Positions 9,551 through 53,122 of a stretch of DNA of 64,000 nt are shown piece after piece. The DNA is from a virus, in IMG/VR virus record IMGVR_UViG_3300032047_000006, positions 17,441-81,440 of that record. One strand, 5' to 3'. The notes under the pieces were generated by a model. The model searched no databases. It saw only the letters and a program-made list of their open reading frames with translations, and was not told the DNA's origin. How positions within the stretch are numbered: position 1 is the first letter of the stretch; every line of letters starts with the position of its first letter. A program made the translations under genes and the position numbers.

Positions 9551-9558
9551 GAGAACAC

Positions 9559-22000: not shown

Positions 22001-22064
22001 GGAAGAGCAGGAAGAACAAGCTACCACAGCATATTCAGAAGACACACTTCCGAGCTACGAATAA
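16020..22064 (+). CDS. Giant 2014-residue baseplate-region protein with an SH3b-like domain
   Basis: 2014 residues, unusually long for a protein between hub and gp25. Residues about 212-285 match a bacterial SH3 domain: the VRTEPSSTASIIDSLL strand, then the GDWAKVSRVYRG segment and VGYILSSEL. SH3b domains often bind cell wall peptides. Residues 360-1000 are mainly helical with acidic and Cys-containing segments. Residues about 1085-1270 are a long charged coiled coil (KLSDAEQKEQEAIGALERAE, LLRELSEAKSSRDEA). A Pro-rich linker (about 1280-1330) leads to a C-terminal globular region of about 700 residues. No family is recognised for the bulk. It could combine functions split among several T4 hub proteins. 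There is no frameshift. Confidence 0.65.
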   Translation: MSFKFTQEHAALSDQIAMQQHSERTGYDYGSSNYTFLRNYAESQAQFEDFAQTGRPLGKLIPRVGTITLNGLQAEISQADIDAYSAAHPQNVVTGQTRIKYVEMLQAGNSPTTSNSSPSTEQDETKGAAIRIRVIEINTGKFIKKEGFKTNEEYQKWVEESPVQAISASQTEGFDYDVTFPIQLDQEEATAEGAASPPATVTPSYPPEPSALTHKVSEISTHVRTEPSSTASIIDSLLLETEVTVYDESVGKNGDWAKVSRVYRGSSEIGVGYILSSELERKEGIIPAPINSEDDKSFRKSEISQIWTSKSDGIPYYDSSDAKYKVSITTDKKDVNVGIQKIYEEFLPKGVGLILDQEGKENTEEIINSLINTESYDNIARAEEFFLEPRSSSFVKILVTVPHKHLSLLEDKDLDKDNFYTYHEYDLEKFRENISKIIKKIDKVGTSVKRFKGEVKEFDSKEESLRMSMLYDNFRNLLKSNDVKFAPEHKGEILAIGWDRTDKVIFVSHTDPESNEIIATKEYLSLNAKTEMSSRRTQFLLQNMKELVSEGIGLPWKEFLETHVGFDKVTIVPKADPPKNSKSSEAEGPTAMTRAQFLAEEKFYLNKERRIEKIKERIKQRDFVGSVSKQDNYKKLKKELNSPLEDIYENVLSRIDLKSLLVSALQCAPMHGQLDILNLPDLIKDIDKIIDEAKKLFHELPTMFFDVDFPTDDISASFVKDLKNFITDMITALIASLVQSVFSSLIDFCPDVSGNEDSPMDPERLDLSALQAALDDMLGDGIRENIDVDSMMNFIEDLASMLSLQEYCDLVSGNPSDKALDIVMNLIRVEYCHLGLDTKAKVIEFFKLLAGTGKFDICDELNEILPPPSSLSPNEDPCEPDNLRRRILINKGMSDEQVQEQIRRERERTAKLARQLMDAMAGQPFQAPNLFCQKDAEGNIIPGATPFMDETFSVMMRETVESLFGPVYTTFQSDGQSYSDSLMEEVDATRIVITGYEKDDDDNPVLTKPIKTTVDIKEKVPVSSLKSSHDSYQINESSEIKIPLSSPSAEASEISAILQKNKDDKEGILTEAETIVESAQHMYDSVSESALNNARELVRWNNSQVKFAKEAVEQAIKDVKAENITNEGLNKVREDTGQEGGFIVYKTPQDSPQVKAAEAKLSDAEQKEQEAIGALERAERALIEDRERLLRELSEAKSSRDEAQSDYDTAAESTERIKQLESNLAELNKFAIYKELTPREVAEREEAERQLHRDRQLLAEQLLSPPPSIGLPKEAEYVPLEEEGCVPEFSPMPSPTQGLKGIFQDRPPAPEETTAEPSQPLYSTAPPPPFLDDTPSVYDVDVRPVTGQSMLIGGKEYFTKRRVPEDIMQFMSTSTMEERYSGVSFFTQLLKDSYPQGFNDEQKKIIPIIYKDLKHEIIENLFRIVAKGKYFETYEGTDALGYFVELINLGPAVTDTCDPHLLKLKKLVDEVLEEFQDDFCLDMEAEKSNGEIRKTPLEASMMKACVKATLRAYLIDNLSRGIFTTAAFAETDSLLNYKMLYIIDRISDELRQYGEDYYMLFMKEVSELDKDRAPGETVTNSFARLLKGEYNEVSRGFLEAIFIDSSQQASIKEKLFLSLPSLTMSENKLHIDIGETEKDLIIPSRDYNDRKTLQNNLVWTHQYKIEDKYYSREDAEELQNTSQKKIEGIKTSLCCLIEPAAADMFLLPNHNTPLSTGVNGMWRNVAPVFDQIGTQDLSRNVYILPITSYGWNVENKSGEDLEIRSIRKMMNTIKMRTLFDWAFPLEDYQSLISLHEMAQLSTIQKVNTVFGESRDELHSLFFSVLPESDDWKKNPNALNNVGGMDNLTAIFDYNFGLKGVPCTNLKWNMGLGVEWGNPFKGLSLTFALKAILNTSLMLFKGHVERMDPNVILANRLSFLSSLVCLNIPPTAYSTLLMIPWPGNPYMPNQLNVLYNALGLGLFDASKQAESTDKKKVKKALENNGFAMPEYCDVREEQEEQATTAYSEDTLPSYE

Positions 22065-24383: not shown

Positions 24384-25789
24384 TGTCTATAAAAAAGTTT
24401 CAAATAACCGCCGACACAACGATATACAATGCCTTCAAAGAAAACCTAAAGGATAGAGGTACAGAGGCGAACACAGGACTTTCGGACTCACTAGAGACTT
24501 TCTTCATATATGGGCAAACTCCAGATCCCAACGCCGCTGCCTCAGACAAGGTGGAAGAAGCCAGAATACTTTTGAAGCCTGATTTCCAAGGAATATTGGA
24601 CACATATACTAATTTCCCATCTGACACTAAATTTATCCTGAGGTTGTTCAATGCCGAACACCCATTCACCCTGCCTAAAAATTTTACATTAAACCTTTTT
24701 TCAATCGTTGATAGTTGGCTTGAAGGTTCGGGGTTAGACATGGAGTCATACAGAGATGTGGGCACTCCAAATTGGTTGAAAAAGGACGCAACCACCACCT
24801 GGGCGACATCTGGTGCAATAGATACATCAACTGCGCCTGTAATCACGTCTCAGACATTTAGTGAAGGTACCGAGGACATGTCACTAGACATAACCTCGTT
24901 CATGCAGGCAAACTGGGCAAACCTATCAGATCACTCTTTCGTGGTTTCCTTTCCGTCTTCAATAACAGACGGTGTAACGCAGACTTTAAATTTTTACACA
25001 AAGAAATTCTTTTCTCGCTCATCAGAATTCTTCTTTAAGCGCCCCGTTGTTGAAGCTAGAAAAGCAAGTTTTACTGGAGACGACAGAGGCAGATTATATA
25101 AGTCTTCACCACTGACTACCAATAACGAACAAAACTTATATTTATATAACACCGTTTCTGGAGTTAGAGAAAATATAACAGGTGACGTTAAATTGGAGCT
25201 ATTTTCAGATTCAACACTGGAGACATCAATCGTTGCAGCAGTTGACGCCACCCGCCCCGATACAGGCGTCTATAAGGCTGTGATCACTGTACCTGACACT
25301 GTTACGGTGGAAACCATATACGAAAAATGGACAGCAGGAGCCACGACTATAAAGACGGGTTCAATAAAGCTTCTAACAAGAGAGCCCGCCACTAATAACT
25401 CTGAAATTAATTATGTAACAGACATCACAAATATCAAGCCCTCCTATGCACCCACGGAGCAGGCAAGATTCAGGATTTACACGAGACAAAAAGATTGGAA
25501 TCCAACTATTTATACAGTAGCGAGCGAAGAATTAGAGAACTTGATTGTTGACAAAATGTATTATAAGATTATTCGTTTAATCGACGGCGAAACTGTCATG
25601 GACTATGGCATCGGCACACTTAATAATAACAAAGAACACACACTCATCTCTTATGACGCTCAAGGTAGTTATTTTGATTTTGATATATCGTCCCTCGAAA
25701 GTGGATATATGTATGGAATCAAATTGATGTTCTCCGTAGCTGGAGAACTAAAGGAACAACCAAATACTTTTAAGTTTAGGGTGGATTGA
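24383..25789 (+). CDS. Baseplate-associated protein with a DNRLRE-like beta-sandwich domain
   Basis: 468 residues. Residues 1-230 follow the DNRLRE pattern found in secreted and surface proteins: an N-terminal strand with 'T.IYNAFKENLKDRGTEANT', a line of small residues with EEARILLKPDF, then LRLFNAE, the IVDSWLEGSGLDME segment, a W near 145, and a closing strand. DNRLRE modules are carbohydrate-binding-like. The remaining 240 residues form further beta-domains (Ig-like segments around 235-335). Its position between gp6 and the giant protein suggests a wedge accessory or short fibre attachment protein. The domain call is by pattern only. Confidence 0.65.
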   Translation: MSIKKFQITADTTIYNAFKENLKDRGTEANTGLSDSLETFFIYGQTPDPNAAASDKVEEARILLKPDFQGILDTYTNFPSDTKFILRLFNAEHPFTLPKNFTLNLFSIVDSWLEGSGLDMESYRDVGTPNWLKKDATTTWATSGAIDTSTAPVITSQTFSEGTEDMSLDITSFMQANWANLSDHSFVVSFPSSITDGVTQTLNFYTKKFFSRSSEFFFKRPVVEARKASFTGDDRGRLYKSSPLTTNNEQNLYLYNTVSGVRENITGDVKLELFSDSTLETSIVAAVDATRPDTGVYKAVITVPDTVTVETIYEKWTAGATTIKTGSIKLLTREPATNNSEINYVTDITNIKPSYAPTEQARFRIYTRQKDWNPTIYTVASEELENLIVDKMYYKIIRLIDGETVMDYGIGTLNNNKEHTLISYDAQGSYFDFDISSLESGYMYGIKLMFSVAGELKEQPNTFKFRVD

Positions 25790-28700
25790 TGAGTACCAAG
25801 GATTTATTCAATAAAAACAATAAAATACTAACAAAATCTGAAGCAAATAAGGTTAAGAAGGATATAGAGTCTTTTGAACTAGTAAACGATATATCAGAAG
25901 CTCGCACATCCCTACGTCCACGTGTTGATTATTCCAAGCCCGAGAATTTTGCAAAATACGGATCTGCGAAGAAATATTACGAAGATTCATTTCAAAGGAT
26001 ACATAGGACATTTCCATACGATGGTTCTAATTCAGAAATCCAGAAATGGTTAAATACATCGACTGGGCTAGACTTATGGATATATGAAAATATCTATCCT
26101 CGCTCCACAGGACATATTAAGTTACTTAATAACCAGTCCGTCACAGCCCAGGGCGGTCCCAATAAACAGCCCGGCATCACCGAAGGCGAGCAGCACGAAC
26201 TGTCAAAACAGTTTCCCTCGAAGCAAGGCAATTCGAATATATGGGATACTTCTGTTTATAGAAATTCAAACTTATATATGGCACCAGCCATTGGCAATAC
26301 GATCGAATTCTGGGCAAAAGTAGATGCCTCAGTTAATTCACCATTTACTGTCTTTAACTTAATAAGTGAAAATCAAGTATCGTCATTAATCTCGATGACA
26401 TATGATCCATCTACAGGGAATGTAACCTATAAATATAAAGATGATGCGGACAACGGCTTTTCATCCAATTCTGTATCCATCCCTGGCTTAATCTCAACTT
26501 CTTGGAATCATATAGCTATATCTTTTCAAAGTGTGAGCGATAAAGTTAATGTTGAAATATATAAAAACGGGCTAAGAATCCACGATGTTTCGGTAGGGGA
26601 TGCAATGACTACTGTATCCCAGTCAGAACTTTTCTTAAATATAAACGGCACATCCAATTCGAACAATTCTGCAAATGGACTTTATATCGACGAATTCAGA
26701 TTTTGGAAGCTCCGAAGAACAGAAGAACAGATCGCCAGACATTGGTTTACTAATGTCTACGGTGGCACAAACACTGACGACAATAAATATAGTACGGAAA
26801 CTAGAAACGTTGATATAGGTGTATATTATAAGTTTAACGAAGGAATAGTTTCTGACGCTACCATCGATGCAACTGTACTAGATTATTCTGGAAGAATTTC
26901 TAACGGCACAATCGTTAACTACACAGAAACAGTAAGATCAACTTTATCCGCCATTGATGAGTCTTCGCATACAACGGAATCGGAGGAAAAAGATCCGATA
27001 ATATATCCATCCCATCCGTCCTATATTTCTTCTCTTGACAGATATTCAAACGCCGGAAACAATTACGATATATCAAACAACGCATCTGTATTTCACACGA
27101 TGCCTGCTTGGATAATTGAGGAAGATGATGAACGGGGCAGTCTGAAAGAGTTGACACAAGTAATAAGTAGTTATTTTGACAACACTCATTTACAAATTCA
27201 GGAATTAACAGAGTTAAAAAAACCAGAATACTATAGTGCCACGTCCCCAGAAGATAGAGCATCTTATCTGGTAAAGACAGGAATCGAATCTTCTGGATTA
27301 ACCATACCAGATCTGTTTACAGAAGCCACAGCTCTAGAGGACATCCTTAGTCGCAACGAGAAAAGTCTCTTTGAAGAGAAGCTTCACGATATAAAGAACA
27401 CGATATATCAAAACATTTACAACAACTTGTCCTATATTTATAAATCTAAGGGAACAGAGAAAGCGTTCAGGAACCTGATAAGATGTTTTGGCATCGATGA
27501 CGAACTTGTTCGTGTTAATTTGTATTCTGACAACACAGATTATCTACTAGAAGATACAAGAAGAGTCGGCTCTACAAAGAAAAATTTTCTTGACTTTAAT
27601 TCGTCTACACGAGATCAGGCATTCGTAGAAACAACACAGGATTCTTTGAATCAATCGTCCACCGTATCATATATCAAGGGCGCAAGAACAAACTGGAAAA
27701 ACCTTTCAGCAACATTTGAAACAGAGCTGATGTTCCCAGGTTATATGGGAACTACACATCCTGAATATGCACCACCAACAAACACAGTTGAAAATATAGC
27801 ATCCATAGGCGTATATTCCTCAGGATATACTTCCACGGAACTGTGGAACCTGACAGCCATTAAGGAAGATAATAACCCTTATTCAAAAAATCTTAAATTC
27901 AGATTAGAGATGGAGGGGCAGACGCTAGATACACCTTATTTCAAAGATGTGTATGGTAATTCAAAGTGGAATGTTGCAGTTAGAGTAAAACCTAAGTCAA
28001 GTCTACCACTCGGCACCCAAGCATCTTCACTGGAATATGGTATTGAGTTGTATTGCCTAAGAACTACAGCCGACACGATAGAAGAGGAGATCTTGGTATC
28101 CGCCACCGTCACCACCTCTGGCTCATATTTAAGTTCTGATAAATATTTGAGGCTAGGAAAGGTTGTCGCTGATACCTCAAAATCTCTGAAGGTATCTTCA
28201 ACATTATTCTGGTATGATTATCTGTCAAACGATGAAATAAAAGCCCACGCATCTGACAGTTCAAATTACGGTAGATTGAATCCTACAGAAAGGGTATATT
28301 CCCACTTAACGACTTTAGAGGGAATTCCACTAACAAGAATGGACACCTTGGCGCTACACTGGGATTTCAACAATATCACAACTAGTGACGGATCCGGACA
28401 AGCTCTCGTTCAAGATCTATCGGAGGGAATTCCATCAACGTCATTGCCGCTAAATAGTAAAGCAATTCAATTCGACGGCGATATCACAGCCGGACAGACA
28501 GATCATGTCTTAGTATCAGACAGTGACGACTTCAGTTTCACATCTGGAGCAGGCACAGATACTCAGTTTTCCATCTCTGCATGGGTATATGTAGACGATA
28601 TCGCCACAGATAACGGACCTTTCGTATCAAAGGCACTTGTGCAGGGAGCAGGAGTTGATATTACAGAATACATCTTTAAACATGTTAACGGTAAGCTAAG

Positions 28701-31700
28701 AACATTCCTGTATAATCCAGACGGCACTGGCAAAAGAATAACGCTGGATTGCAACTCTGCTGTCCTATCGAGCCAAACCTGGCATCATGTTGCCCTGACA
28801 TATGATGCATCAAAGAATTCATCAGGATTATCTTTTTATGTGGACGGAGTAGAAATAGTTGCAACGAATACAAACCTAAATTCAGGCGTATACACAGGAA
28901 TGTCAAGCACTTCGCATCCTCTTATCATCGGCAAGACAGTAAATGATCCTCCCACCGCAGGGCAAGCGTTCGAAGATAAGATGGCAGATGTGTGCATTTT
29001 TAGCAAAGAGCTTTCTTCGGAAGAGGTAGTTGAATTATATAATTCTGGCTCGGTTAAAAACATGGAAGATCACTCTGCTTATGCAGATATAATCTCCTGG
29101 TGGAAGATGGGAGATGATCAGGACACTACTGGTGCCGACGGAATAAAGGATTACGTCGGAACTCACCATGGCACGCTCACAAATGGGGCAACTATCGTAG
29201 ATGAGGTTAATCTTCCTACGGATAATTTAGTATCTGGCAGATTTGGATGGTTCACGGGACTCATTTCAAAGCAAGTGTCCGGGCTCGCTCAATCTTTTAA
29301 CTCTAACGATAATCAAATAATAAATAAGGAATACATATATTCTGCAAAACACAGGACACCTGAGGTAATAAATTCAGAGGATCTTGTACATATAAAGAGA
29401 GACGATGAGGAGCCTTTTACTAGAGATACACGCCCTGTGAGGCACTTCTTTTCAGCTGAAAAGGGAATGTATCAGATTATCAACGACGACATCATTAATT
29501 TATTTGCGACAGTGAAGGAGTTCAATAACCTTATAGGGCAACCTGTGAATAGGTACAGAATGTCCTATAAATCACTCAGAAATTTCAATCAAAAGTATTT
29601 TGAAAAGGTAAAGAATGTTCCAAGTTTGGAGAAGTATGTAGAATACTATAAATGGATTGACTCGTCTATTGGATTGATGCTTCGAGATTTAATTCCCATA
29701 TCCAGTAACTTCTCATCATCTCTGAGAACAATGGTTGAGTCACACGTACTGGAGAGAAATAAATATTGGACTAAATTTCCAACATTGGAAATGTCTGGAA
29801 CGCCACCCGAGGGGCAAATAAGAGGCATTAATGAATTAACATACAATTGGAACCTTGGGCACGCACCATTGCCAGGACAACCAGAATCCGAGTCGTGTGT
29901 TTGGATAGATCAGAGAGTTGAGAGAACGGACGCAATTGTAGCTCATTCTGGTGTCAACGGACTGACTAGCGTCATTGACACAACGAGAGAAATGATCAGG
30001 GGCGTTCAAGCTAGGGTTACGAAGGGATTAGCGAGAGTCGTCGAGCGAAACGGAATTAATGTTGAAGAAACATTGCCAATTCTTCGGGACAACGCAGGTG
30101 CGGTATATGAGGGCAACACCCATACCACACAGGCACTCTCAAAGCCTTATAAGTTTGTAGTTGAAAGCGTAGCAACTATTCACGCAGGCGCAAATTCCAC
30201 GACTACTGGTGATCCAATCGCATTCATTCGATCGGCAACTAAAATAACAACTGGGACTTCTGGAATTATCCTAACCTCCAATGCCGCAACGCCAACATGT
30301 CCATCAGATAGCATTTTGCAAAAAGATAAAAGAAGTCAGGTTATTACAATAACTGATTCCGAGGCAGGCACGTCCTCATCGATGACTGGACTCCGTGGAA
30401 TTTATCCTCATTACAGTTCATCCGCAGGTTCTGAGCTTACCAATATTCACGGCGATACATACGGCGATGACGCAGAGATACCGATGCAGGGTATGTTTAC
30501 AGAGACGCACGTCGGCGGAAACCAGCACAGACACACACATTTTACAGAGCAAACTCCATCGGACAGACCAGAATTTTATTTGAATGATGCAGGCACACTC
30601 AGACACCCACAAGAGGTTAATTCTGATTACCCAGCAGCCCGATATACAAGAGACGAGGTAGCCAAGCGCCCTGTAAATATTAGAAACATCAAGAGCACTA
30701 CCATTAATAATACCCCTCTGGGCAATTACCAAAGAAATTACGAAGTAGTACAAACATCAGGCAGAACCCAGAATAACAGATTCTTTGTAAAGAACGAAGG
30801 AGTCTCCCAAAATTCAGTAAATTCTGCTTTTATTTCTGGCACCGCCGATTTTACTCTCCCTGATAGAACACAGACATCTAGCGGAGCCTCTATCGGAAGG
30901 ACAGAACATGTCTTTGTAGAAAGGTTTTCAGCACCAGGAGATCCGCTCACGTTGTCTCGTGGTTATCTTGATCCATTCGCAGAAGAATACAGTGTGTATA
31001 ATTCAATGAACTTTCGAAATTTAGATGAGAGGTTGGAACATCACAAGAGACTTTACACCCACAGCGGGCTTTATAACGGATCTCAGGGATATGAAGATAC
31101 TACAAACGGAGTCCCTTCAATTCACAAGATAAATAGAAACAGTTATTATCACCCAAGACTTACGCATAATAGTGAATCTGGAAGCTACTTTTGCGAATTT
31201 GATCACGATAATGCATATATATCACATCAGATTCCAAGATCTGATATGCAGTACGCATTCGCCCACGGATCCGTCGATAAGACGGCTTATGAGGGCACTG
31301 AGGTTTTAAATTGTGATGGTGTAACGACACCGGCAAGATTTAGCGGTTATTACGACGATGTGGTTGTTATGAAGGGTGATGAGTTGCACGATGCGCCATA
31401 CTCAGACTATCAAGCAGCAGGCTGGAGATTCATAAGAAATGGAGAAAAGGCAGAAGTAGCTAGAACCAGAAGACAAAACACAATATCGGTATTGGACAGA
31501 GCCCCTGCCACTGTATTCAGGGCGCACACCACATCAAGTCATATTGAGCCAGCCGTTGTGTGGCATAAGCCACTGAGACATGACGTAACTACTTCTGGAG
31601 AAGTTATAGCTCAAATAGATGAAGATAATTTTAGAAATACAGATTCTAGGTTGAATGATCGTCAACTTCGTTTTGCTTTTGCCCTGGGCAACAAGAGAAT

Positions 31701-34700
31701 AACGCACACATATTCTAACAACCTAGAGATATTCTCAAATCCGAATCTTATGAGCAAATTAGACTTGAAGAAGAGTCAAGTACAGTATCTAGACGAGATA
31801 CTTGAAGAGATCCGTCGTGGGGACACCTTATATCAAAAAATCACAATGACTGAGTTAATATATCCAAAAAGACGCAACGTCGGACTTGCTAAAACACGGG
31901 ATCGAAAAATGTTCGACTCCTATAAAGTGTTTTGGAGAGACAAATTTTTTGATAGAGTAAAAAAGAAGAATATTGATACCACCAAGCTTGGATTTAAAAT
32001 ATCAGACGATTTTAGAAAAATGTTCCAGCAACAATACTCTGTTGATTCGATGGACAACTTCTTTTATAAACAGGAACAAGGTGGCACAGAGACAACATTT
32101 CAAACGATAGGAGATTTACAGTCTGTCGGAGAGCAGCGTCACCGATATATGATAACCCGCTCAGACGTAGCACCATTAAATTCCTATGCTGGAAGTAGGA
32201 CAGGATTGGAGGGCTTTAGCACTGTATCTGGTGCAGCCAACCCTCCTTTATACCCGTCTGAAGTAGTACAGAATAAAGCCCCTATACCATCGATACAATT
32301 ATATTATAGTTCACACTCTTTTGCTAAAAAACAGAGCCAAGGGTGGTTAAATAGAAAGCCAAAATTGTCTCAAGCTCCGACGTATGACAATTATTATGAT
32401 TTTTCAGAAGACAACAAGCTCGCCGGACAAAACTATGGAATTGTTTCGGAGTTTCGAGCAAGCGAGCACATGGATAAGTATATCTTCGAGAACGGCGGCG
32501 ACTTCACTGTAAAGAATTATAATTTTCTCACTCTTGACGGCGCATCTCACGACGGAACTACTCATACTAGGACAAGTGGGTTGTCGGACACCGAAACAGC
32601 CGTTTTTTATTCGATCTCACCGAATAATAAGTCCCTTGAAGTTACGTCATATCCGACGAGCACCTCTGATAATTCAATAAGTGCAAATAGGGTTGTGAAT
32701 AACTCTCCAGCTTTTTCAGAGTTTAATAAAATATTTACGCCATCTACAGTCCAGGTGCCGAGCACTTTTGATATATCTAATAGTATAAACACGGAAATAG
32801 AAATAATTCAAGATCCTTCGGCAATAATACCAGTATCTCCGATGATCACGGGTAAATCTGCCGCAGGCATTTTCAACAGAGTCAATACTGACAACGACTT
32901 CTTGGTGATTGAAGTTGATAATTTCTCTTCATCTGCTGAAGCACCCATAGCAGATGACACAGAGATAAAACTAATCTCCTCTGCCGATACCGATTCTGAC
33001 GGACTACCGAATGGATATGTCTCTGATCCCTTTACAATGTCGATATGGGCACAACCAGAGGCATCAAACCAAGTAGGAGACTTCGATGGAATATTCTCAA
33101 TGGGACGAAAGCTTGGCAACGGCTCGGTAAGCGAGAGCATAAACCTTCTTTCAAGATATACTCTTGCAAACGCCCAAAGTGGCTATGGTAATCTCGGACT
33201 TACTTTTGTTGCTTCCACTTCGAATACGGATGGATTTACTACATTCGAATCTGCCCCAGGCGAAGCAGATGAAGTGGGAAATACATGTGCATATACATTT
33301 TTTAAGGCAGATGGATCACCAGCAACCTTAATAGATGAGCAATTTAATCATGTCGTCCTACAGATTATACCACCAGCACTCCGTGTTGCAACAACTCAGC
33401 ATCTTATAAGAATTTGGCTTAATGGGGAACAATTATATGGGGTGCCCGTGTTGGAGCTATTAAGCTCAAGATGGGCGACTCGCCAGGGTCCCGCAATTCA
33501 AAAGGAACTTAATGCTTATAATCCTTGCCCTATTGGCAGGAATACAGCCAGTAGCGGCGATGAGCATCCATGGCTGTTGGACTATGATCACCATACTAAT
33601 GGCGATTCGGGCATTTATGGCATCACTTTCATCAATCGTGTAATCCTTGGTAATGCAAACTTTCATGACTCGATCGATGCTGTAGACAACTTCCCCACCC
33701 CAGGAACTTTTGATAAGAAGTTTCACGGACTTTTGGACGAGTTTAATATTTTCAGAGGTATTTTAAATAGAGAATCGATTAAGCAGTTATATGGAGAAGG
33801 GAAACCGTCTAATACAGCAGAACAAGTATCTGAGTTTTCAGGAAACACTCTCGTTAATTCAGTAGATACTGGCGAATTTTCGTTTCTTCCTCCGTTGGTG
33901 AAGCACGACTATACAAATACGCCCCACCATGATCCTAATGATAATCTTGCGGCTACGATTCAGAATAGATTTCTTGATTATTATAATACAAATACAGACG
34001 ATCAAAACGGTCCAAAAATAGTAAAGTATACCTCTGGCTTCGGTTTAATCATATCCCAAATCGGGCTCGTGGGAACCAAGACGCCTCATAATAGTGTGGT
34101 AGATCCCCCTGGTTCAGCGGGAAATTATTATCGATGGGTTGAGTTGGAAGAATCATTTGAAGAAGACATTAGCGTTGCATATAGTATATATGCAGGCGAT
34201 GCCGCATCGCCCTGGGCAGATCTCAGTGACACACCAGCCAACAGTGAAGTTTTAAGGCTTCAATATAAGTTGGACGACGGTAATTGGACGACATCGTCGA
34301 CTTATTCTGTACAAGACATTTCCAACCCGATAAACACACAAGTCGCAAAAATATCTGATATTTCAGTAGGACAGACACCGGACAACAAGGTGAAGTTGAG
34401 ATGGATTTCAGAGTCATCTAATGTCGTAGGCGATTCACACTGGGGGATAGATAACGTAAGAATTCAATCTATCTCTGAAGGAGTTATTGTCTTGGACAGT
34501 ACCCCAACTTTCGCCCCTATAATAGAGGGAACTTTATTTAAAGAGAATTGGACAGTAGCAATGCAACAGTCCCATTCAGACGAAGCCTCGCTACCAGTCT
34601 GGCATCGAATTGGCATTCCAAGCTATGATAATATAGAAGGCAAATGTGAATCATGGGACGACGAATTTTTTAATTCCTATGTTCACACAAATCATATTCC

Positions 34701-37314
34701 TTTTATTGAAGAGGTTACTCATAAACAATCTTCATTAGGAGTTTGTAATACAACTCAGCGTGTGAGACTCCGTGTGAATGCTAAAAAGAAACTGCTTCCA
34801 TACGAGGGGTTTTACCCGCAAGACAGAACAGTTCAAATAGCAGAACTTTTTGTTAAAAAGATAAAAGATGAAACACCAGGCGAGGAAAAGGCAAATAAAA
34901 ATCAGTCAATTCAGGCGATAATGCAGCACTTTTTCGCACCAGGGATCCTTTATAATTCATTAAAGGCGGGCATTGCTTGCGACTGGGCATCTTTTACTAA
35001 CGAATCGGGACTGGAGCCGTCCTATTATGGAGACACTATTCAGGCAACTAGCAGTAGTGCAGAGGTAGAGTTATATTTAGACTCTCCAGCACCATATTGG
35101 TATCAGGCTAATATGAGCGAGACTACTATGAACCCTCTCTCTTCGATTCAGATTCCGGCTCAAACAGCTCCATCTAGAGTATCAACAAGCCCGATACACA
35201 ACAACAATACTAGCAGTTTGAATAATCTTCTAGGTGCCTCCGCAGTGGATCCTTTGTTTGCTAGTCCACTTGCTAAACACAAATATGTGTATAATTTCAT
35301 GATAGCTCAGAATCCCACAAAAAGGTTACCATTTGAGGCAATACTAGATCCAGTAAATTATCTAAAGTCTACGACTTCTGAAGAAACTCATTCCATCGGA
35401 GCTTATAGCGTAGCGAAAAAGCCAGATCAATATTTTCTCATGACACCTGAGTATTACTCGTTGTCCGGCTCTTTCAGTATTGATATAGTGAATAATCCTG
35501 GTACGGCAGCTTGGCAACAAAATGGTTTAACCAACTATGATAAGTACGTTTACCCTTCTTTTGACGCAAGCCAAATGACAACTGCTGATTCGAGATATGA
35601 AATGGCAATACATAATTTTATGGCAGAGATACCGAGATTTTTCCTAAAGAATAAAACTTTAAATACTTTTACTTCTGATGAAGAAAAAAACTTTAAGAAT
35701 ATGTCATCTGGAACCACATACTATATGGATGTCGTTGTGGGGAAGACAAAGCAGGGATTCTCACCAGTCTATAGTCCGTCAGACTCAGGTGCATCTTATT
35801 TCGGACCGGCAACCAAGTGGAAGGAAGACTTAGATGGTATATCCGATCTTACTGCGGATCCCGCTTATGCGCCATATGTCCCTCCTTATTTCTACGGCTC
35901 ATCGGTAGCGAGAATAAAATTTGTACCACCATTATCAGGAAGCAATAAGTACACTTTGCAGGATATACTTGATAATTCGACAGTGGAGACGGCTTCTGAA
36001 GCTAAGACAACTTTTCAGAGAGAGGCGGGAAATACAGCATTCGAAAATTCACCTTCGTGGGAATCTATGATGCCGGTTTCATCTAGCATTAATTTATTCT
36101 CTACTACAAACAAGAGGCAAGTGGCATTCGCAGCTAACTCAGGCGTCCCACTCACAGTTACGGATTCAACAACCTCCGATAGTTCAGTCTGGGCAATATA
36201 CCCAAGGTTCGAGTGTCCAATTTTGAACTTCTTGTCAGAGGAGAATACCTCAACGAATTCGAACCTTGAAATATTAAATTTCGACAATACTTTACAGGAA
36301 ACTACAACCGCCTCAGGTTTTAGCTATTCGGCGTCTTATTTGGATACGACAAATGATGCTCGCTGGACTAGCGATTACCGTACAGGAGCAGGCTTATGGG
36401 CAGGCATCGGAGAGCAACGCCAGGGCGTAGGAGCATTTCTGACAATAAAGGAAAGTTTTGCAGAAGGTACGGAGAATATAGGTTCTCTAATAGATGTCTG
36501 CGGCTTCCAGCCTGAAACAAGACAATTGGGCGTGATTGCTGATGAACGAGAAATAAAAGAAGCGGTAGTTATGATTCCGTTCTTAGATAAGGCTTTAATT
36601 GAAAATAGATCATCAACCTCTGAGAGTGTACCAACAACACCAGCCTCAGAAGTTCCTGTTACTATAAAAGTTGACGATAGACATTTTATTAGGGTAGATA
36701 GAGCGGAGTATGATGAACAAAAGAGAAGACTTGATGCAGGAATTGATATTGAAAATCCAGCATACGAACTAAAAGATATTCCAGGCAAGTTAGATCAGAA
36801 GTTCATGTCTTCTTCAATTACAAAGATGATAACAGGTATGAGGGAATATAATCTACCCCCTCGATATGATTTTGAGATGTATGAGCAGGCTCCATTCGCA
36901 ATGTATTTCTTTGAGTTTACTCACACTCTGGATAAGGAAGATTTACAGAATATTTGGCAGGGCATGCCTCCCAAGATAGCTAAGAGGATGACACATGATT
37001 TCGTCGAGGTTGAGCATGACATTAACGAGCACGAATTATTCGGACACTTGAACGAGGTTCCAAAAGATATTAGATGGATGGTTTTTAAGGTGAAGAAGAA
37101 GGCGGCACAAAATTATTATGAGTTGACTGCCGACTCTACCGACGATACAAAATTTAAATTCAACTTCGACGTGGGAGAAAAGCCCCCTGAGTATAGTTAT
37201 AACTATCCATACGATTTTTTCACAATGTTAGAGAGAATACAAGTTGAAGCAAAGCCTGAAGTAGTTGGAGATCCTGTCCAACAATTCAAGAAAAAGTACA
37301 GGGACGATAGATAA
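25789..37314 (+). CDS. 3841-residue baseplate/fibre protein with three LamG-like lectin domains
   Basis: The largest gene in the window, starting at ATG 25789 within the previous stop (TGATG). Three concanavalin A/LamG-like beta-sandwich domains are visible. The first is at residues about 165-330 (NTIEFWAKVDAS, then SWNHIAISFQ and YIDEFRFWKLRRTEEQI). The second is at about 855-1110 (FSISAWVYVDD, TWHHVALTYDAS). The third is at about 2400-2690 (PFTMSIWAQPE, FNHVVLQII, LLDEFNIFRGILNRESI). A further jelly-roll-like stretch is at 2770-2895 (HWGIDNVRI). Around 540-590 the segment YKSKGTEKAFRNLIRCFGID is of a type common in phage baseplate proteins. It stands where T4 has gp7 (1032 residues), but I cannot align it to gp7. 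The lectin domains suggest binding of host glycans. Confidence 0.75.
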   Translation: MSTKDLFNKNNKILTKSEANKVKKDIESFELVNDISEARTSLRPRVDYSKPENFAKYGSAKKYYEDSFQRIHRTFPYDGSNSEIQKWLNTSTGLDLWIYENIYPRSTGHIKLLNNQSVTAQGGPNKQPGITEGEQHELSKQFPSKQGNSNIWDTSVYRNSNLYMAPAIGNTIEFWAKVDASVNSPFTVFNLISENQVSSLISMTYDPSTGNVTYKYKDDADNGFSSNSVSIPGLISTSWNHIAISFQSVSDKVNVEIYKNGLRIHDVSVGDAMTTVSQSELFLNINGTSNSNNSANGLYIDEFRFWKLRRTEEQIARHWFTNVYGGTNTDDNKYSTETRNVDIGVYYKFNEGIVSDATIDATVLDYSGRISNGTIVNYTETVRSTLSAIDESSHTTESEEKDPIIYPSHPSYISSLDRYSNAGNNYDISNNASVFHTMPAWIIEEDDERGSLKELTQVISSYFDNTHLQIQELTELKKPEYYSATSPEDRASYLVKTGIESSGLTIPDLFTEATALEDILSRNEKSLFEEKLHDIKNTIYQNIYNNLSYIYKSKGTEKAFRNLIRCFGIDDELVRVNLYSDNTDYLLEDTRRVGSTKKNFLDFNSSTRDQAFVETTQDSLNQSSTVSYIKGARTNWKNLSATFETELMFPGYMGTTHPEYAPPTNTVENIASIGVYSSGYTSTELWNLTAIKEDNNPYSKNLKFRLEMEGQTLDTPYFKDVYGNSKWNVAVRVKPKSSLPLGTQASSLEYGIELYCLRTTADTIEEEILVSATVTTSGSYLSSDKYLRLGKVVADTSKSLKVSSTLFWYDYLSNDEIKAHASDSSNYGRLNPTERVYSHLTTLEGIPLTRMDTLALHWDFNNITTSDGSGQALVQDLSEGIPSTSLPLNSKAIQFDGDITAGQTDHVLVSDSDDFSFTSGAGTDTQFSISAWVYVDDIATDNGPFVSKALVQGAGVDITEYIFKHVNGKLRTFLYNPDGTGKRITLDCNSAVLSSQTWHHVALTYDASKNSSGLSFYVDGVEIVATNTNLNSGVYTGMSSTSHPLIIGKTVNDPPTAGQAFEDKMADVCIFSKELSSEEVVELYNSGSVKNMEDHSAYADIISWWKMGDDQDTTGADGIKDYVGTHHGTLTNGATIVDEVNLPTDNLVSGRFGWFTGLISKQVSGLAQSFNSNDNQIINKEYIYSAKHRTPEVINSEDLVHIKRDDEEPFTRDTRPVRHFFSAEKGMYQIINDDIINLFATVKEFNNLIGQPVNRYRMSYKSLRNFNQKYFEKVKNVPSLEKYVEYYKWIDSSIGLMLRDLIPISSNFSSSLRTMVESHVLERNKYWTKFPTLEMSGTPPEGQIRGINELTYNWNLGHAPLPGQPESESCVWIDQRVERTDAIVAHSGVNGLTSVIDTTREMIRGVQARVTKGLARVVERNGINVEETLPILRDNAGAVYEGNTHTTQALSKPYKFVVESVATIHAGANSTTTGDPIAFIRSATKITTGTSGIILTSNAATPTCPSDSILQKDKRSQVITITDSEAGTSSSMTGLRGIYPHYSSSAGSELTNIHGDTYGDDAEIPMQGMFTETHVGGNQHRHTHFTEQTPSDRPEFYLNDAGTLRHPQEVNSDYPAARYTRDEVAKRPVNIRNIKSTTINNTPLGNYQRNYEVVQTSGRTQNNRFFVKNEGVSQNSVNSAFISGTADFTLPDRTQTSSGASIGRTEHVFVERFSAPGDPLTLSRGYLDPFAEEYSVYNSMNFRNLDERLEHHKRLYTHSGLYNGSQGYEDTTNGVPSIHKINRNSYYHPRLTHNSESGSYFCEFDHDNAYISHQIPRSDMQYAFAHGSVDKTAYEGTEVLNCDGVTTPARFSGYYDDVVVMKGDELHDAPYSDYQAAGWRFIRNGEKAEVARTRRQNTISVLDRAPATVFRAHTTSSHIEPAVVWHKPLRHDVTTSGEVIAQIDEDNFRNTDSRLNDRQLRFAFALGNKRITHTYSNNLEIFSNPNLMSKLDLKKSQVQYLDEILEEIRRGDTLYQKITMTELIYPKRRNVGLAKTRDRKMFDSYKVFWRDKFFDRVKKKNIDTTKLGFKISDDFRKMFQQQYSVDSMDNFFYKQEQGGTETTFQTIGDLQSVGEQRHRYMITRSDVAPLNSYAGSRTGLEGFSTVSGAANPPLYPSEVVQNKAPIPSIQLYYSSHSFAKKQSQGWLNRKPKLSQAPTYDNYYDFSEDNKLAGQNYGIVSEFRASEHMDKYIFENGGDFTVKNYNFLTLDGASHDGTTHTRTSGLSDTETAVFYSISPNNKSLEVTSYPTSTSDNSISANRVVNNSPAFSEFNKIFTPSTVQVPSTFDISNSINTEIEIIQDPSAIIPVSPMITGKSAAGIFNRVNTDNDFLVIEVDNFSSSAEAPIADDTEIKLISSADTDSDGLPNGYVSDPFTMSIWAQPEASNQVGDFDGIFSMGRKLGNGSVSESINLLSRYTLANAQSGYGNLGLTFVASTSNTDGFTTFESAPGEADEVGNTCAYTFFKADGSPATLIDEQFNHVVLQIIPPALRVATTQHLIRIWLNGEQLYGVPVLELLSSRWATRQGPAIQKELNAYNPCPIGRNTASSGDEHPWLLDYDHHTNGDSGIYGITFINRVILGNANFHDSIDAVDNFPTPGTFDKKFHGLLDEFNIFRGILNRESIKQLYGEGKPSNTAEQVSEFSGNTLVNSVDTGEFSFLPPLVKHDYTNTPHHDPNDNLAATIQNRFLDYYNTNTDDQNGPKIVKYTSGFGLIISQIGLVGTKTPHNSVVDPPGSAGNYYRWVELEESFEEDISVAYSIYAGDAASPWADLSDTPANSEVLRLQYKLDDGNWTTSSTYSVQDISNPINTQVAKISDISVGQTPDNKVKLRWISESSNVVGDSHWGIDNVRIQSISEGVIVLDSTPTFAPIIEGTLFKENWTVAMQQSHSDEASLPVWHRIGIPSYDNIEGKCESWDDEFFNSYVHTNHIPFIEEVTHKQSSLGVCNTTQRVRLRVNAKKKLLPYEGFYPQDRTVQIAELFVKKIKDETPGEEKANKNQSIQAIMQHFFAPGILYNSLKAGIACDWASFTNESGLEPSYYGDTIQATSSSAEVELYLDSPAPYWYQANMSETTMNPLSSIQIPAQTAPSRVSTSPIHNNNTSSLNNLLGASAVDPLFASPLAKHKYVYNFMIAQNPTKRLPFEAILDPVNYLKSTTSEETHSIGAYSVAKKPDQYFLMTPEYYSLSGSFSIDIVNNPGTAAWQQNGLTNYDKYVYPSFDASQMTTADSRYEMAIHNFMAEIPRFFLKNKTLNTFTSDEEKNFKNMSSGTTYYMDVVVGKTKQGFSPVYSPSDSGASYFGPATKWKEDLDGISDLTADPAYAPYVPPYFYGSSVARIKFVPPLSGSNKYTLQDILDNSTVETASEAKTTFQREAGNTAFENSPSWESMMPVSSSINLFSTTNKRQVAFAANSGVPLTVTDSTTSDSSVWAIYPRFECPILNFLSEENTSTNSNLEILNFDNTLQETTTASGFSYSASYLDTTNDARWTSDYRTGAGLWAGIGEQRQGVGAFLTIKESFAEGTENIGSLIDVCGFQPETRQLGVIADEREIKEAVVMIPFLDKALIENRSSTSESVPTTPASEVPVTIKVDDRHFIRVDRAEYDEQKRRLDAGIDIENPAYELKDIPGKLDQKFMSSSITKMITGMREYNLPPRYDFEMYEQAPFAMYFFEFTHTLDKEDLQNIWQGMPPKIAKRMTHDFVEVEHDINEHELFGHLNEVPKDIRWMVFKVKKKAAQNYYELTADSTDDTKFKFNFDVGEKPPEYSYNYPYDFFTMLERIQVEAKPEVVGDPVQQFKKKYRDDR

Positions 37315-48406: not shown

Positions 48407-48922
48407 TTGATTTTAGGACTAGACATTTCCACCAGTATTACAGGCATCACTTTACTCGACGATAACGGAGAGGTAAAAGTTATGAATGCTATCGACACAA
48501 GAAAGTATAAAAACTTTTTCCAAAAAGCAGAAGCTGTCAAAAAAGTCTTGACAGATTTATCCAATTCTTATAAAGTAGAAGAGGTGTTTATAGAACAGTC
48601 TCTGCAATCTTTCCGTTCAGGCTTCTCTTCAGCAAAAACGCTTTCAACCCTTTCTCGTTTTAATGGGATAGTAAGTTGGATGTGTTACTCTCTGTGGAAC
48701 CTTGAGCCTCAATACCTTGCAGCCACATCTGCGAGAAAGCTTTGCGGAATAAAGATTCCAAAAGGCGAGAAAGCAAAACCAGTTGTTTTACAATATGTGC
48801 TTGACAACGAGCCTACTTTCGTGGTAGAATATACAAAACACGGAAACCCCAAGCCTGACTCCTTCGACAGAGCAGATAGTTGGGTTATAGCAAAAGCAGG
48901 TTTTTTTCAAAAAACCGCTTGA
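48407..48922 (+). CDS. RuvC-like Holliday junction nuclease
   Basis: 171 residues, TTG start at 48407 with AAGGAAG upstream, typical RuvC length. The RNase H-fold acidic residues are in place: Asp6 in LGLDISTSITG, Glu63 in VFIEQSLQ, and Asp154/Asp157 in SFDRADSWVIAKAG. RuvC-type enzymes cut four-way DNA junctions; in phages this resolves branched DNA before packaging, the role T4 gives to the unrelated gp49. It is followed by a sigma70-like promoter that starts a new transcription unit. Confidence 0.82.
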   Translation: MILGLDISTSITGITLLDDNGEVKVMNAIDTRKYKNFFQKAEAVKKVLTDLSNSYKVEEVFIEQSLQSFRSGFSSAKTLSTLSRFNGIVSWMCYSLWNLEPQYLAATSARKLCGIKIPKGEKAKPVVLQYVLDNEPTFVVEYTKHGNPKPDSFDRADSWVIAKAGFFQKTA

Positions 48923-48976: not shown

Positions 48977-49912
48977 TTGTCGGACAAGATTGCTATTATA
49001 AAAAATGTTTTGGGCAACGGCTATCACTCTGGTGGTGAAACACTATTCTTTTGTCCAAAGTGCAAACACCACAAGAAGAAGTTGTCCGTCAACCTGGAAA
49101 AGAACAAGTTTAAGTGCTGGGTTTGCGATTATCGAGGAAATAACATCCGCCGCCTCGTAAGACGCTTCGGCTCTTTTATGGATCAACAAGCCTGGGCTAA
49201 AATTGACAACACCATAGAGATAGCCTCGTTTGAAGATGTCTTTTCAACAGAGCAGGAAATAGAAGAAAATGTAGAGCAGTCAATAGCTCTTCCAGAAGAG
49301 TTTAAGTCTCTTTGTTCTAACAACCTTTCACTTGCAACAAAGCCTATTCTTCGCTTCCTTTATGAACGAGGTTTGTCCAAAGCAGACATTATAAAGTGGA
49401 AGATAGGTTATTGCCCATCAGGTGAGTATAAAAACAGAATCATCATCCCTTCATTCAACGAGGATGGCGATGTAAGTTATTTTATTGCGAGAACCTACGG
49501 CAACGACTGGATGAAATACAAGAACCCACCTGCTCACCGAAACATTGTTTTCAACGAGCTTTATGTTGACTATGAAGACGACTTGGTTATTGTAGAGGGA
49601 GCCTTTGATGCTATTGTAGCAGGCAATGCAGTTCCTATTCTAGGTTCCTCTTTAAGGGACGATGCAAAGCTATTCCAGAAGATAGTAGAGCACGACACAC
49701 CAGTTTATATAGCCCTCGATCCAGACGTTGAGACAAAGGCGATGAAACTAATAAAAAAAATGTTGACTTTTGATATAGAAGTGTATAAGATAGATATTAT
49801 GCCCTATGGTGACGTAGGCGAAATGACTAAAAGAGAATTCCAAAAGAGAAAGTCGGAAGCACAGCTAATGACGCCCGATACTTTTTTGGAGAGAGCAATT
49901 TTTAGCATCTAA
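48977..49912 (+). CDS. gp61: DNA primase, T4 gp61-like (DnaG type)
   Basis: 311 residues, TTG start with AGAAGG 10 bases upstream. The N-terminal zinc-binding domain has Cys26/Cys29 and Cys47/Cys50 (CPKC and CWVC), typical of DnaG-type primases. A TOPRIM domain follows, with Glu207 in VIVEGAFDAIVAG and the DPD motif in YIALDPDVETKAMK. It would lay down RNA primers for lagging-strand synthesis together with a gp41-like helicase that is not in this window. It is 9 bases upstream of the nuclease/ATPase fusion gene, so the two are probably co-transcribed. Confidence 0.85.
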   Translation: MSDKIAIIKNVLGNGYHSGGETLFFCPKCKHHKKKLSVNLEKNKFKCWVCDYRGNNIRRLVRRFGSFMDQQAWAKIDNTIEIASFEDVFSTEQEIEENVEQSIALPEEFKSLCSNNLSLATKPILRFLYERGLSKADIIKWKIGYCPSGEYKNRIIIPSFNEDGDVSYFIARTYGNDWMKYKNPPAHRNIVFNELYVDYEDDLVIVEGAFDAIVAGNAVPILGSSLRDDAKLFQKIVEHDTPVYIALDPDVETKAMKLIKKMLTFDIEVYKIDIMPYGDVGEMTKREFQKRKSEAQLMTPDTFLERAIFSI

Positions 49913-49921
49913 GGAGAGAAG

Positions 49922-52900
49922 ATGAATAAGAAGAAGAAAGCTTTACGGCTTGCCCACATTAGCGACACCCACATCAGAAACCTAAAATTCCACGAAGACT
50001 ATCGTGCAGTGTTCGAGCATCTCTACGAAATCCTTCGTGAAGAAAAGCCAGACTATATTGTCCATTGTGGAGATGTAGCTCACACAAAGACTCAACTATC
50101 GCCAGAGTTTTTTGAGATGGCTGCAAATTTCTTTGATAAGTTATCGGACATTGCTCCGCTTATTCTTATCGCAGGCAACCACGACGGAAACTTGAAGAAC
50201 AGTAGCCGACAAGACGCCCTAACGCCTATTATCAACGCTCTTGACAAGGATACCATTCACTATCTCAAGAATTCAGGAGAGTTCTCACCTTGTAAAGGCT
50301 TGACGTTCAACGTCCTTTCAGTCTTCGACAGGGACAACTGGGTGGAACCTTCTGACGATAAGTCTATCAACATTGCTCTTTACCACGGAGCTATTGCTGG
50401 CGTTACAACCGACATCGGCTGGGTAATGGATCATGGAGAAGACACAGTAGATATCTTTGAGGGACATGACTATGCTTTCCTTGGAGACATTCACAAGACA
50501 AACCAAATCCTAGACACTGAGGGTAGAGTTCGCTATTGCGGCTCAACGGTTCAACAGAATCACGGCGAGACTAATGATAAAGGTTTTCTTATCTGGGACA
50601 TAAAGGACAAGGACACTTTTGACGTAAGACACCACGTTCTCAAAAACCCACGCCCATTTATGACTATTGAGCTTACAAAGACAGGTAGGCTTCCAAAGAG
50701 TGCCAACCCACCTGCTGGAGCAAGACTTCGCATTGTAACGAACCACTCTATTCCAGTGGAAAAGGTGCGTAAAGCAATAGATGTCGCAAGAACAAAATTT
50801 AAGCCAGAGTCAGTAACTTTTCTTAATAAATCTACAGGCTCCAGGGCAAAGGTGGACATCGGCTCGGATTTTGAAAAACACAACCTCCGTGATGTAGCTG
50901 TTCAAGAAAAACTCATAGGGGAATATCTCAAGGATTATTTATCCACCTCAGACGAGGACAAGAAAGTCTTGAAAGAGGTTATGGAAATTAACAGGAGAGT
51001 TAATTCACAGGCGGAATCAGCAGAGAAAGCTACCCACCGGAATGTAAACTGGTCTCTCAAGACTCTTGAATGGAACAACCTCTTCAACTATGGCGAGGGA
51101 AACAAAGTTGATTTCGCCACCTTGGGAGGAATCATCGGCATCTTCGGAAAGAACTTTTCAGGAAAGTCCTCCATTATTGACAGCCTTCTTTGGGTAATGT
51201 ATAATTCTACTTCCAAGAGAAATAGAAAGTCCGTAGATATTGTAAACCAGAACAAGCAGAACGCTTGGGGCAAGGTAACGATTGAAGTTAACGATAAGCT
51301 TTACACCATTGAGAGGACAGCGGATAAATATGTTAAACGACTCAAGGGAGAGGAAACGGAAGAAGTTAAGACGAATGTAGAGTTTACTGTCTATGATCTC
51401 GCAACAGAAGAGTCCGCACCACTCAATGGTGAGACAAGAAGTCAAACAGATGAAAACATTAGAAAGTTTTTTGGAACACTCGACGATTTTCTCATGACTT
51501 CGTTATCCTCACAATTAGAGTCCCTTGCATTCATTGCCGAAGGCTCGACTCGAAGAAAGGAAATTCTCGCTAAGTTTCTCGACTTGGAAATCTTTGATGC
51601 GAAATACAAAATTGCCAAAGAAGAATCAAGCGATCTCGATGGAAAGATTAGATACCTTCTTGACTCTGTAGGACCTCTTGGGCATGATGTGAGGAAGTTG
51701 GAAACAGAGAAGGAAATAGAAGAGACTACGATACAACTCCGAGAGCAGGAGAATACGTGTAAGGTGTTGACAAAGGAGTTGGAAGAACTCAACCTCAACA
51801 TAATGAGAATTGAAACAAAGTTGGAGTCCACACCTACTCAAAAGGTTGTTGATACTGACAAAGAGAGGGCTAAAGTGAGAAAGCTCTCAAATGACTTGCA
51901 GCTAATTCGTGAAAATAACAAGACTCTGGAAGAAGTCCTAGTAAAGAATGAAGACGTTGTACAGAAGATAAATAATTTCTTGCTTGAATTTAACTATTAT
52001 GATTGGAAAAAGAAAGAGGCAGAGATCGGACAGCTGAACTACCACATTTCCGAAAACGATTCAGAAATAGAGGAGCTTGAAAAGAAGTTGAGAAAAGTCT
52101 CGGAAGATAAGATCTTGCTCCAGCAAGTCCCCTGCGGAGATAAATTCCCAAGCTGCAAATTTATCAAACATGCTTATGATAATGTGGCGAAGGAGCAGTC
52201 CTTACACTCTGAGAGAAGAGATATAGAACGACTCCGTCAAAAATCGATAGATAAGATCGCCAATCTTGACGAAGGCAATGTCGTAAAATATCTAGAGCAA
52301 CATGGGCAGCTTGTTGAAAAGCAGAAGATAAAGCAAGATGAGATCAACAAGTATGAGTTACAGATTGCAAAAAACAGAACAACGATCGTCAGCCTGAGAG
52401 ACTCGAAGAATAAGGCAGAGGAAGATATTCGATTGTTCGAAGAGAATGAGAAGACAATTCTAGAATTTGCCAAGCTCACGACAGAAAGGGTTTGCCTTTT
52501 GGAGGCGAAGAAGAAAAAGAAGAAAGAATTGGCAGAATGCAGCGACTCTTCGATTCGACTGAGCAGGAAGCAAGGGCTTCATGAAAATGCATTGAAAGAA
52601 ATTCAAATACAAGAATTAGATTTGGAGAGATTCCAGAGAGACTTCTCTGCCTATGATCTGTATAAAAAGGCTATGGGCTCCAACGGAGTTTCCTTGGACA
52701 TTATCAAGAAAGAGCTTCCTGTTATCAACGACGAAGTAGCAAAGATTCTTGCTAACGTCGTGAACTTTGAAGTGTTTTTAGAAAATGAAGAAAAACGACT
52801 CAATGTTCTTATCAAGCATCCAAAGTTTGAACCACGTCCCTTAGAGATGGGTTCTGGGGCTGAGAAGGCTATTGCTGCAATGGCTATCCGACTTGCGTTT

Positions 52901-53122
52901 ATGAACGTTTCTTCCCTTCCTATCGGAGATGTTTTTATTCTTGACGAACCAGGCACAGCTTTGGACGAAGAGAACATGGAAGGCTTCATTCGAATTTTGG
53001 ATTTGGTAAAGTCTCATTTTAAAAACGTCATTCTTATTTCACACTTGGATAGTTTGAAAGATTCGGTAGACTTGCAAATAGCCATTGAGAAGAAGGACAA
53101 GTTTGCTTTTGTTAATCAGTAA
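49922..53122 (+). CDS. gp47-gp46: Mre11-Rad50 (gp47-gp46, SbcD-SbcC) single-chain fusion
   Basis: 1066 residues with an uninterrupted frame. Residues about 8-330 are an Mre11/SbcD-type metallophosphoesterase: AHISDTHIR (Asp15, His17), HCGDVAHTK, LIAGNHDG, and the later YHGAIAG and FLGDIH. From about 385 a Rad50/SbcC ATPase starts: WNNLFNYGEGNKVDF, Walker A GKNFSGKSS (409-417). Two coiled-coil arms (about 560-900) flank a hook with Cys738 and Cys745 (CGDKFPSC). The Rad50 half ends with signature GSGAEKAIAA and Walker B VFILDEPGTALDEE (Asp1008). In T4 and in bacteria these are two proteins. The complex resects DNA ends for recombination-dependent replication and helps degrade host DNA. The fusion fixes a 1:1 ratio. 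Confidence 0.9.
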   Translation: MNKKKKALRLAHISDTHIRNLKFHEDYRAVFEHLYEILREEKPDYIVHCGDVAHTKTQLSPEFFEMAANFFDKLSDIAPLILIAGNHDGNLKNSSRQDALTPIINALDKDTIHYLKNSGEFSPCKGLTFNVLSVFDRDNWVEPSDDKSINIALYHGAIAGVTTDIGWVMDHGEDTVDIFEGHDYAFLGDIHKTNQILDTEGRVRYCGSTVQQNHGETNDKGFLIWDIKDKDTFDVRHHVLKNPRPFMTIELTKTGRLPKSANPPAGARLRIVTNHSIPVEKVRKAIDVARTKFKPESVTFLNKSTGSRAKVDIGSDFEKHNLRDVAVQEKLIGEYLKDYLSTSDEDKKVLKEVMEINRRVNSQAESAEKATHRNVNWSLKTLEWNNLFNYGEGNKVDFATLGGIIGIFGKNFSGKSSIIDSLLWVMYNSTSKRNRKSVDIVNQNKQNAWGKVTIEVNDKLYTIERTADKYVKRLKGEETEEVKTNVEFTVYDLATEESAPLNGETRSQTDENIRKFFGTLDDFLMTSLSSQLESLAFIAEGSTRRKEILAKFLDLEIFDAKYKIAKEESSDLDGKIRYLLDSVGPLGHDVRKLETEKEIEETTIQLREQENTCKVLTKELEELNLNIMRIETKLESTPTQKVVDTDKERAKVRKLSNDLQLIRENNKTLEEVLVKNEDVVQKINNFLLEFNYYDWKKKEAEIGQLNYHISENDSEIEELEKKLRKVSEDKILLQQVPCGDKFPSCKFIKHAYDNVAKEQSLHSERRDIERLRQKSIDKIANLDEGNVVKYLEQHGQLVEKQKIKQDEINKYELQIAKNRTTIVSLRDSKNKAEEDIRLFEENEKTILEFAKLTTERVCLLEAKKKKKKELAECSDSSIRLSRKQGLHENALKEIQIQELDLERFQRDFSAYDLYKKAMGSNGVSLDIIKKELPVINDEVAKILANVVNFEVFLENEEKRLNVLIKHPKFEPRPLEMGSGAEKAIAAMAIRLAFMNVSSLPIGDVFILDEPGTALDEENMEGFIRILDLVKSHFKNVILISHLDSLKDSVDLQIAIEKKDKFAFVNQ

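Follow-up and report, generated by a model that had tools for sequence, protein, structure and literature searches.

In the window analysed here (64,000 nucleotides, bases 17441-81440 of an 81440-base IMG/VR virus record), one uninterrupted gene encodes an Mre11/SbcD nuclease followed by a Rad50/SbcC ATPase. Very probably, this gene is the phage's end-processing nuclease of the SbcCD or gp47-gp46 type, made as a single chain; its activity, the cis arrangement, the dimer and the pathway are what we infer. The virus itself is a tailed phage, since terminase, portal, baseplate and PhoH-like genes are found among the neighbouring genes of the window. The gene, its parts and its immediate surroundings are as follows.

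48407..48922, + strand: RuvC-like Holliday junction resolvase gene, preceding the primase gene
48977..49912, + strand: DNA primase gene, immediately upstream of the fusion gene
49911..49916, + strand: Shine-Dalgarno-like AAGGAG, separated from the ATG by 5 bases and overlapping the primase gene's stop codon
49922..53122, + strand: Mre11-Rad50 (SbcD-SbcC) fusion gene, 1066 codons plus stop (open frame, Pfam and PHROG matches)
49943..50656, + strand: Mre11/SbcD-like phosphoesterase domain, residues 8 to about 245 (D15xH17, GD51xxH, GN86H87D, H155, GD189IH191)
50657..50833, + strand: capping-domain-like region, residues 246-304 (predicted structure; assigned by analogy with the matched Mre11/SbcD structures)
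50894..51019, + strand: helix-loop-helix, helices 325-336 and 344-366, presumed Rad50-binding element (predicted structure)
51020..51046, + strand: linker of some 9 residues (367-375) that joins the Mre11 part to the first Rad50 strand (predicted structure; selection on junction codons)
51047..51586, + strand: Rad50 N-lobe, residues 376-555 (Pfam, predicted structure, structure match)
51146..51172, + strand: Walker A GKNFSGKSS, residues 409-417 (alignment)
51587..52126, + strand: ascending coiled-coil arm, residues 556-735 (predicted structure)
52127..52156, + strand: hook loop, residues 736-745, with C738 and C745 as CX6C (alignment, predicted structure)
52157..52753, + strand: descending coiled-coil arm, residues 746-944 (predicted structure)
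52754..53119, + strand: Rad50 C-lobe, residues 945-1066, with signature SGAEK, Walker B FILDE and His1041 (alignment, predicted structure)

The initial annotation had read from the letters a 1066-codon frame with the motifs of Mre11/SbcD and then those of Rad50/SbcC, and on this Pfam, PHROG and the motif alignment agree. Pfam places Metallophos at residues 8-191 (5.8e-14) and AAA_23 at 384-624 (1.8e-11), and also matches SMC_N (7.6e-15); PHROG matches SbcD at 2-372 (9e-34) and SbcC at 277-1062 (2.3e-51). The whole Mre11/SbcD motif set (DxH, GDxxD, GNH(D/E), H, GHxH) is present, with two substitutions, GDxxH and GDIH. The second half is a bipartite ABC ATPase, in which Walker A, the signature (978-982), Walker B (1005-1009) and the H-loop are arranged around an antiparallel coiled coil; in an alignment of 44 sequences its ATPase residues are conserved. 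Thus, the Walker motifs, the coiled coils and the hook cysteines noticed earlier are all there, the latter spaced as CX6C. The coiled-coil arms comprise approximately 180-200 residues each, for which we estimate a span of about 27-30 nm from the residue count at 0.15 nm per residue.

The AlphaFold2 monomer model, built with 41 relatives, has a mean pLDDT of 80.8 and a pTM of 0.48, hence the individual domains are fairly reliable whereas their relative placement is not; the loop 305-318 after the capping region is of low confidence. Among PDB structures, the top Foldseek matches are Mre11-Rad50 complexes, with Mre11/SbcD chains 3tho_B, 6s6v_B and 4lty and Rad50/SbcC chains 7zr1, 7yzp and 3av0. 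The model predicts a helix-loop-helix at the C-terminal end of the Mre11 part, as is expected of Mre11/SbcD proteins. The Rad50 half had been supposed to start where the Rad50-binding helices belong; in the model both helices are kept, and Rad50 begins only at about residue 376.

As separate genes are the rule among the cultured phages compared, one could suspect that an assembly or sequencing error had joined two adjacent genes. The relatives speak against this. The IMG/VR scan yielded 313 stretches encoding relatives, and in the best 80 of these 313, all from separate contigs and 46-88% identical to the window's protein, both halves lie in one frame without exception (80/80), so that the proposed search of phage and metagenome sequences for further fusions has answered positively. 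The two closest relatives, L002 and L054 (88% and 75% identical), align with the window's chain without gaps, and codons 320-400, on both sides of the junction, show purifying selection (pN/pS 0.109/0.805 against L002 and 0.152/0.844 against L054). Since independent relatives have the same read-through and selection acts across the junction, an assembly error is refuted, and we give it next to no probability.

The broader set of loci, comprising the best IMG/VR matches, the relatives of the Microcystis phage protein and contigs of metagenome-assembled genomes (MAGs), contains the full fused frame in 102 loci by a strict blastp test, the window's copy included; three further frames (L094, L096, L098) are long enough, with a split blastp match. 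In 76 loci a relative of the primase is situated upstream of the fusion. Ten IMG/VR records of 81-203 kb, among them the window's own and some that are probably partial, have the fused gene as their only SbcC/SbcD-family match, and no separate SbcC or SbcD gene was found there. In addition to its single-frame fusion, the 735-kb phage LR756501 has a gp46-like gene on its own and, at another place, a short SbcD-like match. The long contigs confirm that full-length fusions are regularly present in a large group of tailed phages, where they apparently are the only copy; the authors of the 2011 study discussed below could show full-length fusions for a few long reads only (PMC3175470).

It could also be supposed that an internal start yields a free Rad50 half in addition, the complex then not being strictly 1:1. 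There is an ATG at codon 354 in the window, L002 and L054, preceded in the window by AGAGG, but this AGAGG, just 2 bases from the ATG, is too near to it to make a good start site, and a protein started there would have its N-terminus within the second of the presumed Rad50-binding helices (344-366). We therefore consider a second product very improbable, and treat the gene as encoding a single chain.

Such a chain is not unprecedented. Yoshida, Claverie and Ogata (Virol J 2011) described Mimivirus R555 as an Mre11/Rad50 fusion and found twelve further fusions, with Bacillus phage 0305phi8-36, bacterial plasmids and several eukaryotes among the carriers; homologues of R555 were very abundant in aquatic viral metagenomes, and were argued to be probably phage genes (PMC3175470). 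As that paper covers such fusions, including the abundant ones of aquatic viruses, the window's gene cannot be read as new. The initial annotation held that the two proteins are separate in T4, bacteria and eukaryotes; this stands for T4 and E. coli, but not in general, given the fusions reported in 2011 in Mimivirus, a phage, plasmids and eukaryotes. In the literature searched we found no later paper on such fusions, nor any biochemical work on this clade, which is not proof of absence.

The window's protein is most likely a member of the R555-like group of fusions from aquatic viruses, as judged from its sequence. Like R555, it has Mre11, a capping region, a helix-loop-helix, a short linker and Rad50, in this order and in one frame, which corresponds to the published definition, and its relatives are abundant in viral sequence sets. 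The grouping rests on the two departures reported for the R555 active site, GDxxH as motif II and Asp where Pyrococcus has His206 (PMC3175470), both of which are shared here; the comparison was made through these reported substitutions. R555 differs in its length of 1351 aa and in coming from a virus of amoebae, whereas the present clade consists of tailed phages with proteins mostly of about 1050 aa. In the Thermotoga complex the C-terminus of Mre11 is approximately 28 A from the N-terminus of Rad50, a distance that 9-12 residues would bridge (PMC3175470), and the predicted linker of about 9 residues agrees with this calculation.

A tree built from 44 fused systems and 8 separate ones has all fused rows on the same side of a branch with SH-aLRT 99. 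For the phage clade studied here, this suggests a single origin of the fusion; we go no further than a suggestion, because there are few separate systems and several long branches, and because the fusions do not form one group in the 2011 tree with other taxa (PMC3175470).

The only named isolate recovered with the fusion is Microcystis phage Mel-JY01. Its protein WWT39521.1, annotated only as an AAA domain containing protein, is likewise a single-frame fusion of near-equal length, 28-29% identical along the full chain; its gene adjoins a primase-like gene, but it carries a canonical CXXC hook (KCKHC). T4 gp47/gp46 and the counterparts in cyanophages, Vibrio phages and SPO1-like phages are the same two enzymes, with the nuclease gene first and in a phage recombination context, but as separate genes and with a CXXC hook; T4 in addition has GDxxD and GHxH motifs and a shorter gp46 (560 aa). 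E. coli SbcD and SbcC share the fold and the motif order, but are separate proteins of adjacent genes, with GHxH in the nuclease and longer arms in SbcC (1048 aa). Plasmids gave weak and partial matches only, hence the plasmid fusions of the 2011 study were not recovered as close kin. The four strong matches in bacterial genomes all (4/4) lie in MAG contigs and are taken as phage sequence or mis-binning. One of the loci, L108:5980-8073 on the 2.8-Mb WOR-3 MAG chromosome CP070664.1, has a phage-type fusion (54% identity) followed by a run of N and unrelated sequence, and is probably a mis-join.

By analogy with T4 gp46/gp47 and SbcCD, the fused protein most likely serves in ATP-controlled processing of DNA ends. 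This role is proposed because of the homology, the neighbouring primase and resolvase genes, and a gene of the RecA/UvsX family in most long relatives (5/6, and also in Mel-JY01); no RecA gene was found in the window's own 81-kb record, which is probably partial. Two chains would dimerise through their Mre11 parts and their ATPase heads, and the hook would bring the coiled coils together. This would reproduce the usual M2R2 complex; the helix-loop-helix of each Mre11 part would sit in cis, on the root of the Rad50 coiled coil in its own chain. By closing and opening in an ATP-driven manner, the heads would control whether DNA ends can reach the Mre11 active site, and the recombinogenic ends so made would feed recombination-dependent replication and repair, similarly to T4 gp46/gp47. 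The covalent linkage would fix the 1:1 ratio and make the Mre11-Rad50 contact intramolecular, and the complex, for which two subunits are normally required, would be available as one chain; it may, as the initial annotation proposed, also change assembly and regulation. A role in defence was considered and rejected, the PADLOC matches being weak, partial and mostly over the ATPase.

The active site bears on whether the nuclease is retained. Seven residues (D15, H17, D51, N86, H87, H155, H191) do not vary within the 44 aligned sequences; nearly all of these close motif II with His instead of Asp, and the position of Pyrococcus His206 is occupied by Asp189 in every one (44/44). GDIH was observed in all fused frames scored (102/102), whereas GHxH is found in T4 gp47, E. 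coli SbcD and two cyanophage proteins, and GDLH in a Vibrio phage protein. Since a metal-site His is replaced by Asp in each of these fused frames, the nuclease could be altered. If so, the fused chain might serve mainly for tethering or as a structural bridge, its nuclease being weaker or changed, for which one could also cite the same Asp in R555 (PMC3175470). We regard this as unlikely: the remaining metal-site residues and His87 are invariant, which is not expected of a dead enzyme, and aspartate is itself a common metal ligand. End processing by an active nuclease is hence the reading we keep.

The apex cysteines of the window's protein, C738 and C745, depart from the CXXC zinc hook, a motif described as highly conserved in a recent study (PMC9569753). 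Among 84 dereplicated fusions, 61 have CX6C (the window's included), 20 CXXC and two CX7C, one being ambiguous. The CX6C spacing in three quarters of the sampled family is a lesser novelty of this work. At least 7 changes of hook type are needed on a tree built without the hook columns. As the hook varies among close relatives, we treat the spacing as a departure within the family, dropping the claim of a canonical hook and keeping the ATPase assignment. Tentatively, and with some doubt prevailing, we suggest that the Rad50 hook of the fused family switches in evolution between CXXC and CX6C, and that the latter would then need another way of binding metal or of pairing. In that case hook type would be a variable trait and not a fixed feature of Rad50, and these natural variants would form a set for testing what the zinc hook requires.

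Several loci deviate from the common arrangement. In L066 and L072 long tblastn spans had raised the suspicion of inteins or introns, but the fusion gene is intact in both. Directly after it there is a GIY-YIG/NUMOD3 endonuclease gene (L066:6936-7905, L072:4110-5080), behind which a second copy of the last approximately 60 codons of the fusion, from Walker B onward, is situated; this suggests a homing endonuclease with Walker B DNA as its target, which carried its own 3' end along. In the 484-kb phage LR756508.1 (L082:5665-6579) the fusion gene is split just after GDIHK by an ORF with zinc-finger-like cysteines and a match to a TnsA-like N-terminal nuclease. No Rfam family matched L066, L072 or L082 at E up to 0.1. 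The fusion frame of L105:3304-6544 is broken shortly after GDIHK, near the position of the L082 split, and its two frames share about 11 bases; the break may reflect a frameshift, a split gene or an error.

Elsewhere in the window, ORFs of 3842 and 2014 aa (25786-37314 and 16020-22064) lie near the baseplate gene, and two adjoining glycosyltransferase-like genes (phrog_2170) and a PhoH-like gene are located at 9517-11963 and 5998-7338.
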